From positions 1 through 34,893 of the forward strand of contig JAFPEE010000253.1 in the NCBI GenBank assembly GCA_017389705.1: a stretch of 34,893 nt of DNA, written 5' to 3'. The DNA comes from Prevotella sp. GTDB lineage: Bacteria; Bacteroidota; Bacteroidia; Bacteroidales; Bacteroidaceae. The notes beneath the pieces were generated by a model. That model made no database searches, had not been told where the DNA came from, and worked only from the letters and a program-made list of their open reading frames with translations. The translations under genes and the position numbers were made by a program. This document shows, piece after piece, positions 1,275 to 7,693 of the stretch (position 1 is its first letter; the number at the start of each line of letters is the position of its first letter).

Positions 1275-1305
1275 TTTGTTGTTTCATGGAAAATACGTAC
1301 TTTTG
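1275..1305 (+). promoter_or_regulatory. Promoter of the leu/ile operon
   Basis: TTTG at 1275-1278 and TACTTTTG at 1298-1305 fit the Bacteroidetes -33/-7 consensus with a 19-base spacer. The predicted start of transcription is near 1309, 23 bases before the leader peptide ATG at 1332. The spacing makes the whole attenuator part of the transcript. Confidence 0.75.
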
Positions 1306-1331
1306 CAACCGAAATAAGCGAAATAGTGACA

Positions 1332-1409
1332 ATGACGAGTCTTCATCTGATTAGCAACCTGATTATTATTCGACTGCGTAAAGTAGTCGGAAGTGATAGG
1401 GCATGCTAA
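1332..1409 (+). CDS. Leader peptide of the branched-chain amino acid operon (25 codons)
   Basis: This short frame opens with ATG at 1332 and ends with TAA at 1407. Ten of its 25 residues are branched-chain: Leu at 4, 6, 10 and 15, Ile at 7, 11, 12 and 13, Val at 18 and 19. The densest run is L-I-I-I at residues 10-13, followed by R-L. Its 3' half overlaps the pause hairpin and the antiterminator strand, as in classical ribosome-mediated attenuation of leu and ilv operons. The peptide is expected to have no function beyond stalling the ribosome when charged Leu or Ile tRNA is scarce. It has no Shine-Dalgarno sequence, which is normal for the phylum. It was identified by codon content and position relative to the terminator at 1445-1488; it is not a homology call. 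Confidence 0.8.
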   Translation: MTSLHLISNLIIIRLRKVVGSDRAC

Positions 1410-1463
1410 TAATAAAGGTATAGACAAGATAGATACAAACAACGCGAGCCTTTCTCACTTCCG
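1371..1463 (+). promoter_or_regulatory. Attenuator: pause hairpin and antiterminator
   Basis: Two mutually exclusive structures can be read. The pause/protector hairpin pairs 1371-1377 with 1383-1389 (seven pairs, one G-U, five-base loop) inside the leader peptide frame. The antiterminator pairs CGGAAGTGA (1388-1396) with TCACTTCCG (1455-1463), nine perfect pairs, using the ascending arm and loop of the terminator. A ribosome stalled on the Leu/Ile codons at 1359-1376 would cover the 5' arm of the pause hairpin and free 1388-1396 for antitermination. A ribosome that reaches the stop codon would favour the terminator. The regulatory logic is inferred from the known leu/ilv/his type. Confidence 0.75.
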
Positions 1464-1488
1464 AGTGCGAGAGGCTTGTTTCGTTTTT
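1445..1488 (+). terminator. Intrinsic terminator of the attenuator
   Basis: Arms 1445-1459 and 1464-1478 form a 15-position stem with a single U-C mismatch and two G-U pairs around a four-base loop TCCG. The U-rich tail TTTCGTTTTT follows at 1479-1488. It stands 68 bases before the leuA start codon, the right place to abort transcription of the whole operon. Confidence 0.85.
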
Positions 1489-1555: not shown

Positions 1556-3052
1556 ATGACAGACAGACTTTACATTTTTGACACGACGCTTCGCGACGGC
1601 GAGCAGGTGCCTGGATGCCAGCTCAACACGATTGAGAAGATTCAGGTAGCCAAGGCGCTCGAACAGTTGGGCGTCGATGTCATCGAAGCAGGATTTCCAG
1701 TATCAAGTCCTGGTGATTTCAATTCCGTTATAGAGATTTCAAAAGCCGTCACGTGGCCTACTATTTGTGCCCTGACTCGTGCCGTCCAACACGACATCGA
1801 CGTAGCTGTTGAGGCTTTGCAATATGCCAAACACAAGCGCATCCACACAGGTATTGGCACCAGCGACGAGCACATCAAGTATAAGTTCAACACAACTCGT
1901 GAGGACATCATCGAAAGAGCTGTGTGGGCCGTTAAGTATGCTCGTCAGTTTGTCGACGAGGTCGAGTTCTATGCCGAGGACGCTGGACGTACGGACAATG
2001 AGTATCTGGCGCAGGTCATCGAGGCTGTCATCAAGGCAGGTGCCACCGTAGTTAACATTCCAGACACTACGGGCTATTGTCTTCCCCTCGAGTTTGGCGA
2101 CAAGATAAAGTACTTGAAGGAACACGTCGACAACATCGACAAGGCCATCATCTCCACCCATTGCCACAACGACCTCGGAATGGCTACAGCTAATACGCTG
2201 GAGGGTGTGCTGAACGGTGCCCGTCAGGTAGAGGTGACTATTAACGGTATTGGTGAGCGTGCTGGCAATACCTCGCTTGAAGAGATTGCAATGATTCTGA
2301 AGTGCCACAAGAATATCCACATCGAGACCAATATCAACACTACGAAGATTTATCCCGTTAGCCGCATGGTGTCGAGCCTGATGAACATGCCTGTCCAACC
2401 GAACAAGGCCATCGTGGGTCGTAACGCTTTTGCTCACTCCTCAGGCATTCATCAGGATGGTGTGTTGAAGAATGTGCATACCTATGAAATCATCGACCCG
2501 AAGGATGTTGGCATCGACGACAATTCGATAGTGCTTACAGCCCGTTCTGGTCGTGCAGCATTAAAGTACCGTCTGGCCGCTAATGGCGTAGAACTATCGG
2601 AGGAGAAATTGGACAAGGTTTACGAGAACTTCCTCCAGCTGGCCGACCAGAAGAAGGAGGTGACCGATGCTGACGTGCTGATGCTGGCAGGTGCCGATAT
2701 GGCCGATGCTCATGCCGTAAGGCTTGATTTCCTGCAGGTGACGACGGGCAAGGGCGTGAAGAGTGTGGCCTCCATCGGACTCGATATATCAGGTCAGAAG
2801 TTCGAGGCTGCCGCATCAGGTAATGGCCCTGTCGATGCTGCCATCAAGGCATTGAAGAAAATCATCATGAAGCAGATGACGCTGAAGGAGTTTACCATCC
2901 AGGCCATTTCTAAGGGCTCGGACGACGTAGGTAAGGTGCACATGCAGGTGGAGTACGACGGAAGCCTGTACTATGGCTTTGGAGCCAATACGGATATCGT
3001 GACGGCCTCAGTAGAAGCATACATCGACTGTATTAACAAGTTTAAGAAATAA
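1556..3052 (+). CDS. leuA: 2-isopropylmalate synthase
   Basis: This 498-residue enzyme condenses acetyl-CoA with 2-oxoisovalerate, the first committed step of leucine synthesis. The DRE-TIM barrel opens with D9-T-T-L-R13-D14-G-E-Q. The metal site H202-x-H204-N205-D follows, then the conserved NGIGERAGN loop near residue 225. Residues from about 370 to the end form the LeuA dimer/allosteric domain that normally senses leucine, with [14 protein letters not shown] visible in it. Length is normal for the family. It is the first structural gene behind the attenuator and lies five bases from leuC. A paralogue two genes downstream differs in the substrate pocket (see cimA), so this copy is the better leucine-branch enzyme. 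Confidence 0.93.
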
Positions 3053-3056
3053 TGGT

Positions 3057-4451
3057 ATGAATACGCTATTCGACAAGATATGGGACCGGCACGTGGTGCA
3101 GGTAGTGGAGGACGGTCCAACTCAGCTCTACATCGACCGACTTTACTGTCATGAGGTGACTACGGCTCAGGCCTTCGACGGCATGAAGGCTCGCGGGCTG
3201 AAGTGTTTCCGTCCTGACCAGATTTTCTGCATGCCCGACCACAATACGCCTACGCACGACCAAGATAAACCCATTGCTGACCCTACGTCAGCCAAGCCTG
3301 TGGCTGTGCTGGAGCAGAATGCTCGTGAGTTCGGACTGACGTACTATGGCATGAATAGTAAGGACAACGGCATCATTCATGTCGTGGGTCCGGAGAAGGG
3401 GCTCTCGCTGCCAGGCATGACCATCGTTTGTGGCGATTCACACACATCGACGCATGGTGCTATGGGAGCTGTGGCTTTCGGCATCGGTACTTCGGAGGTA
3501 GAAATGGTACTGGCGTCGCAATGTATCCTGCAACAGAAGCCCCAGTCGATGCGCATCAGCATCAACGGACAGTTGGGTAGGGGAGTGACCCCCAAGGATG
3601 TAGCCCTATACCTGATGGCCCAGTTGACAACCTCTGGGGCTACCGGCTACTTCGTGGAGTATGCCGGCGACGTGGTGAGCTCGATGTCAATGGAGGGTCG
3701 ACTGACGCTCTGCAACCTTTCTATCGAGATGGGAGCACGAGGCGGATTCATCGCTCCCGACGAGACTACCTTCGAGTATATCAAGGGACGTGAGTATGCC
3801 CCAACAGGCGAAGCCTGGGATCAGGCTGTCAGTTATTGGAAAACGTTGCGTAGCGGCGACAATGCTGTCTTCGATAAGGAGCTGGTATTCAGCGCAGAAG
3901 ATATAGAACCGAGAATCACTTATGGAACCAATCCGGGTATGGGTATTGGTATTACAGAGGCGATACCAGCTACAGCTGAAGAGGCCCGTTCACCTCAGCA
4001 AAGCTTTGAAAAGGCTCTCTGTTACATGGGTTTCAAGGCTGGTGAGAAACTGCTGGGCAAGAAGGTGGATTACGTTTTCTTGGGTGCCTGCACCAATGGT
4101 CGCATTGAGGACTTCCGTGCTTTTGCCTCGATGGTGAAAGGTCGTAGGAAGGCCGATAGTGTGGTGGCCTGGCTGGTTCCTGGCTCGTGGGCTGTCGACA
4201 AGCAGATTCGTGAAGAAGGACTCGACAAGGTGCTTCAGGCATCAGGTTTCGAGATACGTCAACCTGGTTGTTCTGCCTGTCTGGCTATGAACGACGACAA
4301 AGTGCCTGCTGGCAAGCTCTGCGTTTCGACTTCGAATCGTAACTTCGAGGGGCGTCAGGGCCCAGGATCGCGTACCATCCTCGCTTCACCATTAGTAGCC
4401 GCAGCCGCAGCAATAACAGGAGTAATAACCGACCCAAGAGAGCTATTATGA
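3057..4451 (+). CDS. leuC: 3-isopropylmalate dehydratase, large subunit
   Basis: This 464-residue protein of the aconitase family carries the 4Fe-4S cluster that isomerises 2- to 3-isopropylmalate. The cluster cysteines are C345 in GACTNG and C405/C408 in GCSACLAMN. The substrate-binding block [19 protein letters not shown] is also intact. It works as a heterodimer with LeuD, whose start codon overlaps the leuC stop by four bases (ATGA), indicating translational coupling. In this operon the same enzyme should also convert citramalate to 3-methylmalate if the downstream synthase is a true CimA; that dual use is known for LeuCD in citramalate-pathway organisms and is inferred here. Confidence 0.96.
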
Positions 4452-5044
4452 AACAGAAATTCAACGTTATAACAAGCACCTGCGTTCCTCTGCCGTTAGA
4501 GAACGTAGATACCGACCAGATTATCCCGGCCCGATTCCTGAAGGCAACGACAAGGGAAGAGAAGTTTTTTGGTGATAACCTGTTTCGCGACTGGCGATAC
4601 AATGCTGACGGAACGGTAAACGAACATTTCGTGCTCAACGACCCTACTTACTCAGGTTGCATCCTCGTGGCTGGCAAGAACTTCGGAAGCGGAAGCAGTC
4701 GCGAGCATGCCGCATGGGCCATTGCAGGCTATGGTTTCCGTGTGGTCATCAGTTCGTTCTTTGCTGATATCCATAAGAACAACGAACTCAATAACTTCGT
4801 ACTGCCTGTAGTGGTCAGCGAAAGCTTCTTGAAAGAGCTTTTCGACAGCATTCAGAACGACCCCAAGACATTGGTCGAAGTTGATTTGCCTCGCCAGACC
4901 GTGACCAATAAAGCCACAGGCCACTCTGAGCAGTTTGAGATTAACGGCTATAAGAAACATTGTCTGATGGAAGGACTTGATGACATAGACTTCCTCGTTC
5001 AGAACAAAGAGAAGATAGAACAATGGGAACAGCACAACAAGTAA
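4448..5044 (+). CDS. leuD: 3-isopropylmalate dehydratase, small subunit
   Basis: The 198-residue swivelling domain of isopropylmalate isomerase. Characteristic blocks are [14 protein letters not shown] near the N terminus, [15 protein letters not shown] near residue 75 (the substrate-recognition loop) and FADIHKNN near 100. It starts on the ATGA shared with leuC and ends inside the start of the next gene, which begins 22 bases before the leuD stop. The tight overlaps indicate a single coupled message. Confidence 0.95.
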
Positions 5045-6606
5045 ACAGCTACAAGCGCATCGCACCCTTCATTGAGATTATGGACTCGACGTTGCGCGAT
5101 GGCGAACAGACCAATGGCGTCTCGTTCTTGCCCCATGAGAAGCTGGTCATGGCCCGCAAACTGCTCTATGATGTCAACGTAGACCGTATCGAGGTGGCTT
5201 CGGCACGTGTCTCTGAAGGCGAACGCGAGGCCGTGACCAAGATATGTACCTTTGCCGAGAAGACAGGCCTGCTGGAGCGTGTCGAGGTGCTGGGCTTCAT
5301 CGATGGTGGTAAGAGCATCGATTGGATAGCTGAGTGTGGTGGCCGTGTCATCAACCTGTTGGCCAAGGGCTCGCTCAAGCATTGCACCCACCAGTTGCAC
5401 AAGACTCCTAAGGAGCACATTGCCGACATTAAGCGAGAGTTGGAGTATGCCGCCAAGCGCGGTATCAGCGTCAACCTCTACCTGGAGGACTGGTCGAACG
5501 GTATGAAGGATTCTCCTGAGTACGTCTACCAGCTGATGGATATGCTGACCGTCGATAGTCAATTGCCAACAACCATCAAGCGTTTCATGCTGCCTGACAC
5601 CTTAGGCGTGATGAATCCTCTGCAGGTGGTGGAGTACTTTCGTAAGATGGAAAAACGCTACCCACAAGTACACTTCGACTTCCACGCTCACAACGACTAC
5701 GACCTGGCAGTATCCAATTCGCTGGCAGCTGTATTGAGTGGTGCCAAAGGATTGCATGTGACAGTTAACGGGTTGGGAGAGCGATGCGGCAATGCGCCGA
5801 TGGCCTCTGTGCAGGCTATTCTGAAAGACCAGTTCCATGCAAAGACCAATCTAGTGGAGAGTCAGCTGAACGACCTCTCGCGAATGGTCGAGAGTTTTAG
5901 CGGTATCAACGTGGCCCCCAACCAGCCGATAGTAGGCGAGAATGTGTTCACGCAGGTTGCTGGTGTGCATGCCGATGGCGACACGAAGGACCAGCTCTAC
6001 TACAACGAGCTGATGCCAGAACGCTTTGGTCGAAAGCGTGAATATGCCTTGGGCAAGCAGAGCGGACGTGCTAACATTGCCAAGAATCTGGAGGAACTGG
6101 GTTTGGAACTGACTCCTGAACAGACACGTCGAGTGACTGAGCGTATTACCGAGTTGGGTGACAAAAAGGAGATTGTCACTCAGGATGACCTTCCTTACAT
6201 CGTCAGCGACGTGCTGAAACATGACGGTTCGGAGGATAAAGTGAAACTCATCAGCTACGTGGTCTCAACGGCTTACGGCCTGAAGCCTGGAGCCAATGTA
6301 CGAGTAGAGATTAATGGACAGCAGTATGAGGCAGGTGCTACAGGCGACGGCCAGTACGACGCCTTTGTTAAAGCCCTGCGCTTCATTTATAAGAAGTACC
6401 TTGACCGTACGTTCCCCATCCTGGCCAATTACCAGGTTTCCATTCCTCCTGGCGGACGTACGGATGCCTTGGTGCAGGCGGTTATCTCGTGGCACTATAA
6501 GGATGGATTGCTGCGTACCCGTGGCTTGGATGCCGACCAGACGGATGCAGCCATCAAGGCAACGTTCAAGATGCTGAATATTGTAGAGAACGAAACAACG
6601 AAATAA
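5023..6606 (+). CDS. cimA: Probable (R)-citramalate synthase, Leptospira type
   Basis: A 527-residue member of the LeuA/homocitrate synthase family, clearly distinct from the leuA at 1556. The DRE-TIM barrel has D21, R25 and the metal site H221-x-H223-N224-D. A C-terminal LeuA-type regulatory domain covers about 385-527. From memory of the Leptospira interrogans enzyme, its three hydrophobic pyruvate-pocket residues (L81, L104, Y144) align here with L90, L113 and Y153, and long blocks such as YLEDWSNG, VGENVFTQ and GVHADGD match. It would join pyruvate and acetyl-CoA to give citramalate, which LeuCD and LeuB carry to 2-oxobutyrate, a threonine-independent route to isoleucine. A second isopropylmalate synthase is the alternative; an assay would decide. 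Confidence 0.75.
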   Translation: MGTAQQVNSYKRIAPFIEIMDSTLRDGEQTNGVSFLPHEKLVMARKLLYDVNVDRIEVASARVSEGEREAVTKICTFAEKTGLLERVEVLGFIDGGKSIDWIAECGGRVINLLAKGSLKHCTHQLHKTPKEHIADIKRELEYAAKRGISVNLYLEDWSNGMKDSPEYVYQLMDMLTVDSQLPTTIKRFMLPDTLGVMNPLQVVEYFRKMEKRYPQVHFDFHAHNDYDLAVSNSLAAVLSGAKGLHVTVNGLGERCGNAPMASVQAILKDQFHAKTNLVESQLNDLSRMVESFSGINVAPNQPIVGENVFTQVAGVHADGDTKDQLYYNELMPERFGRKREYALGKQSGRANIAKNLEELGLELTPEQTRRVTERITELGDKKEIVTQDDLPYIVSDVLKHDGSEDKVKLISYVVSTAYGLKPGANVRVEINGQQYEAGATGDGQYDAFVKALRFIYKKYLDRTFPILANYQVSIPPGGRTDALVQAVISWHYKDGLLRTRGLDADQTDAAIKATFKMLNIVENETTK

Positions 6607-6631
6607 GCGAATATAGTTAAAAGATAAAGTT

Positions 6632-7693
6632 ATGAGACTGAAAATTGCCGTATTGCCAGGTGATGGCATAGGACCAGAGATTATGAGGCAAGGTGTCGCA
6701 GTAATGGATGCAATAGCAGCCAAGTTCGGACACGAGTTTGAATACGAAGAGGCCATAGTGGGAGCCTGTGCCATTGAAGCCTGTGGTGACCCCTATCCAG
6801 CATCTACCCATGAGGTATGTATGAAGGCCGATGCGGTACTCTTTGCTGCCGTGGGCGATTTGAAATACGACAACAATCCCACGCTTCCCATTCGTCCTGA
6901 GACGGGCTTGCTGGCTATGCGCAAACAGCTGGGACTGTTTGCCAACGTTCGTCCGGTTGCTACCTTCGACTGCTTGTTGCACAAGTCACCCCTGAAGGAC
7001 GAACTGCTGCGAGGTGCTGACTTCATCGTGTTGCGTGAGTTGACAGGAGGTATGTATTTTGGTGAGAAGTATCAGGACAATGATAAGGCCTATGATACCG
7101 ACATTTACACCCGTCCTGAAATTGAGCGTATCCTGAAGCTGGCCTTCGAGATGGCTATGCAACGCAAGCGTCATCTTACTGTCGTTGACAAGGCCAACGT
7201 GCTGGCATCAAGTCGTTTGTGGCGTCAGATTGCACAAGAGATGGAACCTCAATATCCAGATGTAAAGACAGATTATATGTTCATTGACAACGCTTCGATG
7301 CGAGTGTTGACCGAGCCTCGCTACTTTGATGTTATCGTGACAGAGAACACCTTTGGCGATATCTTGACGGACGAAACCTCGTGCATCACAGGTTCTATGG
7401 GTCTGCAACCTTCATCGTCGCTGGGTGAGCACACGCCACTCTTCGAACCCGTTCACGGCTCATGGCCACAAGCAGCAGGTCAGAATCTGGCAAACCCGTT
7501 GGCACAAATTCTCTCAGCTGCCATGCTCCTTGAGCATTTTGGGCTGAACAAGGAAGGCGCCTTGGTGCGCGATGCTGTCAACGCCTCACTCAATGCCAAT
7601 GTCCGCACCCCTGAGATTCAGGTAGAAGGTGGCGAAAAGTATGGAACAAAAGAAGTAGGACAATGGATTGTAGACTATATCGAAAAGGCTTAG
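6632..7693 (+). CDS. leuB: 3-isopropylmalate dehydrogenase
   Basis: A 353-residue NAD-dependent beta-decarboxylating dehydrogenase that makes 2-oxoisocaproate from 3-isopropylmalate. It has GDGIGPEI at the N terminus, the conserved DNASMRVL and [15 protein letters not shown] regions and the nucleotide-site block EPVHGSWP. The start lies 25 bases after the cimA stop. In this operon it could also oxidise 3-methylmalate for the isoleucine branch. The last 31 bases overlap the proposed start of the TPR gene. Confidence 0.95.

Follow-up and report, generated by a model that had tools for sequence, protein, structure and literature searches.

A probable ribosome-mediated leucine/isoleucine attenuator upstream of the leu operon in Prevotella and other Bacteroidales

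Introduction

Attenuators of leu and ilv operons are known from enterobacteria, where they comprise leuL, ilvL and the ilvB leader, and where Rfam holds the Leu_leader family. In the Bacteroidetes, the Bacteroid-trp RNA (RF01692), which we take to be a Trp attenuator, belongs to an operon other than leu, and a comparative survey by Lopatovskaya and colleagues from 2010 reportedly predicts attenuators in several phyla, which may include the Bacteroidetes. In the excerpted source, the Bacteroid-trp RNA figures as a candidate cis-regulatory RNA of this phylum (PMC2864571), a status that it shares with the element described below; it has no match in the DNA analyzed here. The transcriptome of Flavobacterium psychrophilum, likewise a member of the Bacteroidetes, gave strong clues for leader-peptide attenuation before amino-acid operons, with no leu-operon element among the candidates reported in the excerpted text (PMC9723704), and an excerpt on B. 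thetaiotaomicron describes small ORFs reminiscent of leader peptides (PMC7366714). In the Corynebacterium ilvB/ilvBNC leader, an upstream ORF precedes the ilv genes (PMC10272879 and PMC11857589), and the title of the latter source announces that mutations support an attenuator model with three hairpins. The upstream ORF is shared with our element, although the organism belongs to another phylum and the likeness is drawn at the level of description. Our literature search, whose scope did not include the 2010 survey, turned up no publication that deals with a leu attenuator in the Bacteroidetes. Within the literature searched, the mechanism is known, while the family, its breadth in the Bacteroidales and the tracking of operon genes by leader codons appear to be undescribed.

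The element treated here lies ahead of the leu operon in a contig of a Prevotella sp. genome that is 85.8% complete; we refer to the whole stretch of 34,893 nucleotides as the window. Like the enterobacterial attenuators, it has a leader peptide rich in the codons to be sensed, together with mutually exclusive helices for protector, antiterminator and terminator; the rare Leu codon CTA is likewise enriched across the locus set, although it is absent from the window itself. Unlike those attenuators, the Bacteroidales leader has neither an Rfam match nor a Shine-Dalgarno sequence, and it unites Leu and Ile in one leu leader, a combination for which the presence of a cimA-like gene among those of the operon accounts. 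A further difference is that arm 2, the 5' arm of the antiterminator, lies mostly within the leader ORF, the stop codon following at a median of 21 nt after the start of the arm.

The leader element and its operon

A profile search gave the operon order leuA-leuC-leuD-cimA-like-leuB, at positions 1556-7693 of the window. The leader element and the genes, all on the + strand, are as follows:

1275..1278, +: TTTG, the -33 box of the promoter that precedes the leader
1298..1305, +: -7 box TACTTTTG (TAnnTTTG; base-level reading)
1332..1409, +: leader ORF of 25 codons, MTSLHLISNLIIIRLRKVVGSDRAC (ATG at 1332, stop TAA at 1407-1409; homologous leaders in relatives)
1359..1376, +: predicted sensing codons Leu10-Ile11-Ile12-Ile13-Arg14-Leu15 (from ribosome-mask folding and codon profile)
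1369..1391, +: protector (1:2) hairpin (9 pairs, 1369-1377 with 1383-1391, -12.3 kcal/mol)
1388..1396, +: arm 2, the antiterminator 5' arm, CGGAAGTGA (9 perfect pairs with 1455-1463)
1455..1463, +: arm 3, the antiterminator 3' arm, TCACTTCCG (also within the terminator)
1444..1479, +: terminator hairpin (15 pairs, 1444-1459 with 1464-1479; then GUUUCGUUUUU)
1480..1488, +: U-rich tract of the terminator
1556..3052, +: leuA, 2-isopropylmalate synthase (NF002086, 741 bits; TIGR00973, 673 bits; both above cut-off)
3057..4451, +: leuC (TIGR00170, 620 bits, above cut-off)
4448..5044, +: leuD (TIGR00171, 181 bits, above cut-off)
5023..6606, +: second LeuA-family gene, of the putative citramalate-synthase (CimA) type (searched as 5080-6606)
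6632..7693, +: leuB (TIGR00169, 426 bits, above cut-off)

The element is confirmed as real, and the anatomy given by the original prediction, made from the sequence before any comparison, is correct within a few bases. The Bacteroidetes -7 promoter consensus is TAnnTTTG, and the consensus promoter of that prediction was found as Bacteroidetes-type boxes at 1275-1278 and 1298-1305; in 62 of 65 loci, a TAnnTTTG box stands 15-90 nt 5' of the leader ATG. Reading at base level bore out a leader peptide of 25 residues with 4 Leu, 4 Ile and 2 Val as well as the antiterminator of nine perfect pairs between 1388-1396 and 1455-1463. The terminator, placed at 1445-1488, agrees within a few bases with a hairpin at 1444-1479 plus a U tract to 1488, and the terminator region (1442-1492) has a fold energy of -21.6 kcal/mol. 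A pause hairpin had been assigned to 1371-1377 and 1383-1389; the hairpin exists, but its extent had to be revised to nine pairs (1369-1377 with 1383-1391), and it shares 4 nt with arm 2. A short ORF with codons for the products of the operon is thus followed by a terminator, both ahead of the first gene. A generic sigma-70/terminator scan of the window reported neither the leader promoter nor the leader terminator, probably because simple patterns do not fit them. The sole Rfam match at gathering score in the window is a cobalamin riboswitch (RF00174, 19135-19329, - strand, 85 bits).

The second LeuA-family gene may encode a citramalate synthase of the isoleucine pathway. Its best model is the CimA model NF042433, at 610 bits; since this score is under the cut-off of the model (950), the name serves as a lead and not as a firm assignment. 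A CimA-type role is backed by the way in which Ile codons and this gene track each other across loci, as described further below.

Distribution among relatives

The leuA locus set consists of the window and 77 of 80 fetched loci, which gives 78 readable regions; L023, L062 and L077, with upstream DNA that is too short, were left out. A search rule that combines a Leu/Ile-rich leader ORF, a terminator and a complementary arm matched 65 of the 78 upstream regions, as against 1, 0 and 0 matches in three dinucleotide-shuffled sets of the same regions. Three further loci (L024, L058, L073) carry the element when inspected by eye, for a total of 68/78. Of the ten loci that lack it (L079, L007, L008, L012, L015, L022, L041, L042, L044 and L065), nine show no part of it and L079 has the terminator alone, which looks like a decaying copy of the attenuator. 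In seven of the loci without attenuator, the LeuA motif DTTLRDGEQ is preceded, at a distance of about 50-90 nt, by a TAnnTTTG box.

Beyond this set, we sampled the order (48 of 57 genomes that match LeuA besides that of the window, 8 not being fetched and 1 unreadable) and other orders and classes of the phylum (28 of 29 loci besides that of the window, from 124 matching genomes among 198), the latter by the DNA directly before leuA. The rule matched 28/48 regions of the order sample, with 0, 0 and 0 matches in shuffled copies, and 1/28 of the phylum sample, with 2, 0 and 0 in shuffled copies. Strict cut-offs left 60/78 in the leuA set, 20/48 in the order sample and 0/28 in the phylum sample, where leuA may not head its operon and the count covers the DNA directly before leuA. 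When the same strict cut-offs were applied to the entire 34.9-kb window, tiled along each of its strands, matches appeared only at starts 1101 and 1201 of the + strand. Two loci have an unreadable leuA start (L160, L110), and three leaders were dropped as doubtful (L137, L139 and also L292, with 1 Ile, 2 Leu and no cimA seen). A covariance model, R1, matches 157/301 family genomes, leu and ilv together, with filters that lose weak matches. Judged by sequence, the putative attenuator is widespread in the Bacteroidales.

Sensor codons and operon content

A few leu leaders with little or no Ile (L121, L206, L207) suggested a test against the presence of cimA, which follows leuD in 74/80 leuA loci, 3 more being cut off too early. 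In the pooled leu leaders, at least two Ile codons occur in 134/134 loci with cimA in the operon vs 2/14 without it (Fisher 6e-16, uncorrected for kinship and with the loci that gave the idea included in the pool). Four loci of unknown operon status (L020, L027, L035, L264) were left out of this test, and five (L220, L222, L249, L339, L340) were labeled as having leuA split from leuCD after their gene order had been seen. Among 59 loci that were added once the idea had arisen, 32 have a called leader: all 28 with cimA contain 2-7 Ile codons, and L339, L340 and L342, which lack cimA and represent two lineages, contain none, the doubtful L292 being dropped. On a LeuA tree of 109 rows, which includes every third member of the 80-locus set, cimA status changes at least six times; in independent pairs, Ile codons change in the same direction 4.7 times on average and in the opposite direction 0 times. 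The corresponding sign test (p 0.0625, or 0.125 with fewer rows) is, taken alone, suggestive.

The two exceptions that lack cimA and still hold at least two Ile codons are L226 (4 Ile; its sister L225 retains cimA) and L249 (2 Ile). Gene relocation gives further cases. In G391 and G503, leuA stands apart behind a Leu leader with one Ile; in G391, the separate leuC-leuD-cimA-leuB cluster has an Ile-rich attenuator of its own with the leader MTMYSTIINSGIILSLRISCSE, of which G503 has a near copy. Such a second, Ile-rich attenuator, ahead of leuC-leuD-cimA-leuB split from leuA, is seen in L281 (about 1228-1380) and L282. In G374, cimA-ilvE-ilvD (ilvE and ilvD named by eye) is preceded by a Leu/Ile/Val leader. 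Upstream of the relocated cimA of G425, G485, G457, G499 and G478 no leader was seen; G499 has a 20-codon Ile-rich ORF there, which lies before the likely cimA promoter and has no visible terminator behind it. In the window, the leader would sense Ile because the operon holds a citramalate-synthase-like gene, which the original prediction had overlooked.

Valine codons behave in a parallel manner. All 16 script-called ilv leaders have 4-7 Val codons in the sensing part, and all 153 leu leaders have 0-2, a count that rules out Val as a sensed residue of the leu leader. The original prediction had counted two Val codons in the leader of the window; both lie downstream of the sensing part. Ten weaker second R1 matches were fetched, and all proved to be leaders before ilvD-ilvB; 14/30 ilv loci misfit the IlvD pattern and were read by eye. 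Val-run attenuators of the same architecture were called by script before the ilvD operons of L191-L200, L203, L204, L208, L230, L350 and L362, all Bacteroidales, and by eye in L360, L361 and L363. For ilvD of the genus of the window, inspection by eye found no such leader in roughly 330 nt (11/11 loci, own genome included).

These patterns bear on the possibility that the element only resembles an attenuator and that general translation or some other factor, instead of the codons, now exerts control. Streptomyces offers a precedent for this: in the excerpted account, mutated candidate codons in a similar-looking ilvB leader were without effect, and leuA leader mutations were inconsistent with classical attenuation (PMC1262725). 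Here, however, 12 of the 14 loci with cimA away from leuA have at most one Ile, and the leaders of ilv operons abound in Val codons, which renders such control highly unlikely. Selection seems to act on the codons, since Ile and Val content follows the operon.

Codon position and folding around a ribosome

The distance from the codon in the A site to the leading edge of the ribosome is about 13 nt. In 66/91 loci, 13-15 nt separate the start of the last Leu/Ile codon from arm 2, and over the same 91 loci, the combined Leu and Ile fraction is 0.73 at codon -5 before arm 2, 0.20 at -4 and 0.04 at -3, the Val fraction near -5 to -3 being 0.00 to 0.03. Leu/Ile codons thereby stop abruptly at the point where a stalled ribosome would start to cover arm 2.

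Folding of the window without a ribosome gives a terminator probability of 0.97, and this probability exceeds 0.5 in 89/91 loci. When a ribosome is masked with its leading edge at +13, the only A-site positions that favor the antiterminator are Leu10-Ile11-Ile12-Ile13-Arg14-Leu15; moving the leading edge anywhere between +10 and +16, at either 37 or 39°C, shifts the ends of this permissive set by at most one codon. The original proposal that stalling at the Leu-Ile-Ile-Ile run would open the operon is in keeping with this result, as masked folding flips only at about Leu10-Leu15. In an equilibrium ribosome scan of the 91 loci, 209 of 315 permissive codons were Leu/Ile (66%) vs 586 of the 1964 other codons (30%). 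In 42/91 loci the scan yielded no permissive codon because the full terminator is too stable at equilibrium, which limits its use as a clean test to the window and some of its relatives; in those 42 loci, the switch would have to be kinetic.

A riboswitch, a T-box or a protein-binding leader that senses leucine or isoleucine directly, with the short ORF as an incidental feature, might account for the strong conservation of arms 2 and 3 in primary sequence in the Prevotellaceae set. An Rfam search of the leader, however, found no family at gathering score, including the leucine leader, T-box and riboswitch families, and returned just two sub-threshold matches (E 7.4 and 9.8). The identity of the codons, moreover, tracks operon content, and their position is fixed relative to arm 2; as an incidental ORF explains neither, we regard direct sensing as even less probable than codon-independent control.

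Codon choice within the leaders differs from that of the genes that follow. Across 65 loci, CTA makes up 28% of leader Leu codons vs 1.5% in leuA, and in the order set 37% (26 leaders) vs 3.1% (19 leuA genes); none of the four Leu codons of the window leader is CTA. Leaders also strongly favor the Ile codon ATT over ATC, two codons that are expected to share one tRNA: ATT accounts for 84% of leader Ile codons vs 32% in leuA (65 loci), and for 77% vs 37% in the order set. A leader start without Shine-Dalgarno sequence, as the original prediction had it, is supported by A-rich leader starts and by an SD-like motif in only 3/65 loci. The excerpt of PMC7366714 quotes an adenine rule for Bacteroidetes, and this A-richness agrees with it.

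Covariation and the reading of arm 2

The original prediction had staked itself on conserved Leu/Ile codons and on compensatory changes in the three stems of related genomes; both were found, and all three stems covary over an alignment of 68 sequences. Controls consisted of 500 shuffles, which keep relatedness, and of slid versions. Of the antiterminator cells, 95.2% are paired, and double changes occur in 11 vs a shuffled mean of 3.9; the terminator (13 pairs counted) is paired in 93.9%, with 29 vs 6.6; and the protector is paired in 86.0%, with 17 vs 2.8. For all three stems, paired share, double-change cells and covariation score were matched by 0/500 shuffles and by no slid version. Two measures are weak for the antiterminator, namely its 3 pairs with double change, reached by 15/500 shuffles, and its 9 further pair types, reached by 258/500. 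In the protector, column pair 18/33 is unpaired in 44/68 sequences.

In other families of the order, arms 2 and 3 differ in sequence and yet still pair. When arms were swapped within the order sample, own pairs had a mean of -15.4 vs -12.5 kcal/mol for swapped ones, 11/28 own pairs fell in the best tenth, and the median z against shuffled leaders was -2.4; the contrast is only moderate because arm 3 is similar between families. In 6/61 loci, which form four groups (L029; L033/L038/L063; L035; L080), arm 2 is read in another frame, the 61 being the 65 script-called loci minus 4 whose arm 2 misfit the pattern used. Since arm 2 is kept in another frame, the conserved end of the leader is under selection there as RNA, not as peptide. 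Arrest of the ribosome on a free amino acid by the C-terminal GSD-type sequence of the leader peptide, to which the seemingly conserved end RLxxxxGSDxxC of many loci might point, is rejected on account of these six loci, which keep arm 2 with a different peptide end, and divergent loci alter both arms together, so that this reading retains a negligible probability.

Proposed mechanism

The results fit three-helix attenuation, and no rival fits nearly as well. We put at roughly 0.93 the probability that the element belongs to the classical attenuators of transcription that act through a ribosome, here serving an operon for both leucine and isoleucine. Anatomy, conservation, covariation, codon geometry and the tracking of operon genes by codons are established by computation, and from them we infer actual stalling, read-through and ribosome-polymerase coupling.

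In this attenuation model, RNA polymerase would transcribe the leader, and the first ribosome would initiate at AUG 1332 with no need of a Shine-Dalgarno sequence. When Leu- or Ile-tRNA runs short, the ribosome would wait with Leu10-Ile13 or Leu15 in its A site, breaking the protector (1369-1391) and leaving arm 2 (1388-1396) free. Free arm 2 would then pair with arm 3 (1455-1463), no terminator would form and leuACD-cimA-leuB would be transcribed. With both charged tRNAs plentiful, the ribosome would proceed over arm 2 and the terminator would form; it would likewise form if there is no translation, as the protector hairpin would then hold arm 2.

Implications

We consider it reasonably probable, with less assurance than for the attenuator itself, that a Bacteroidales family of leu and ilv attenuators re-tunes its sensor codons to the genes of the operon, and that transcription and translation are tightly coupled at these leaders. 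Such coupling would have to work there because the device needs the first ribosome close behind RNA polymerase. If this is true, the products of an operon are read out by its leader, and the coupling operates in a phylum whose translation starts do not rely on Shine-Dalgarno sequences. The reach of classical attenuation would thereby extend to leu and ilv operons in an order common in gut and rumen, and the comparative support for this is unusually rich. The family may also be viewed as a natural codon-swap experiment, in which, over at least six changes of operon content, Ile codons follow or stay and never move in the opposite direction, and it aids in placing the second LeuA-family gene, whose identity is ambiguous, in the isoleucine pathway as a putative citramalate synthase. 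Ultimately, these leaders would make ribosome-polymerase coupling directly testable in the Bacteroidota, which lack Shine-Dalgarno initiation.
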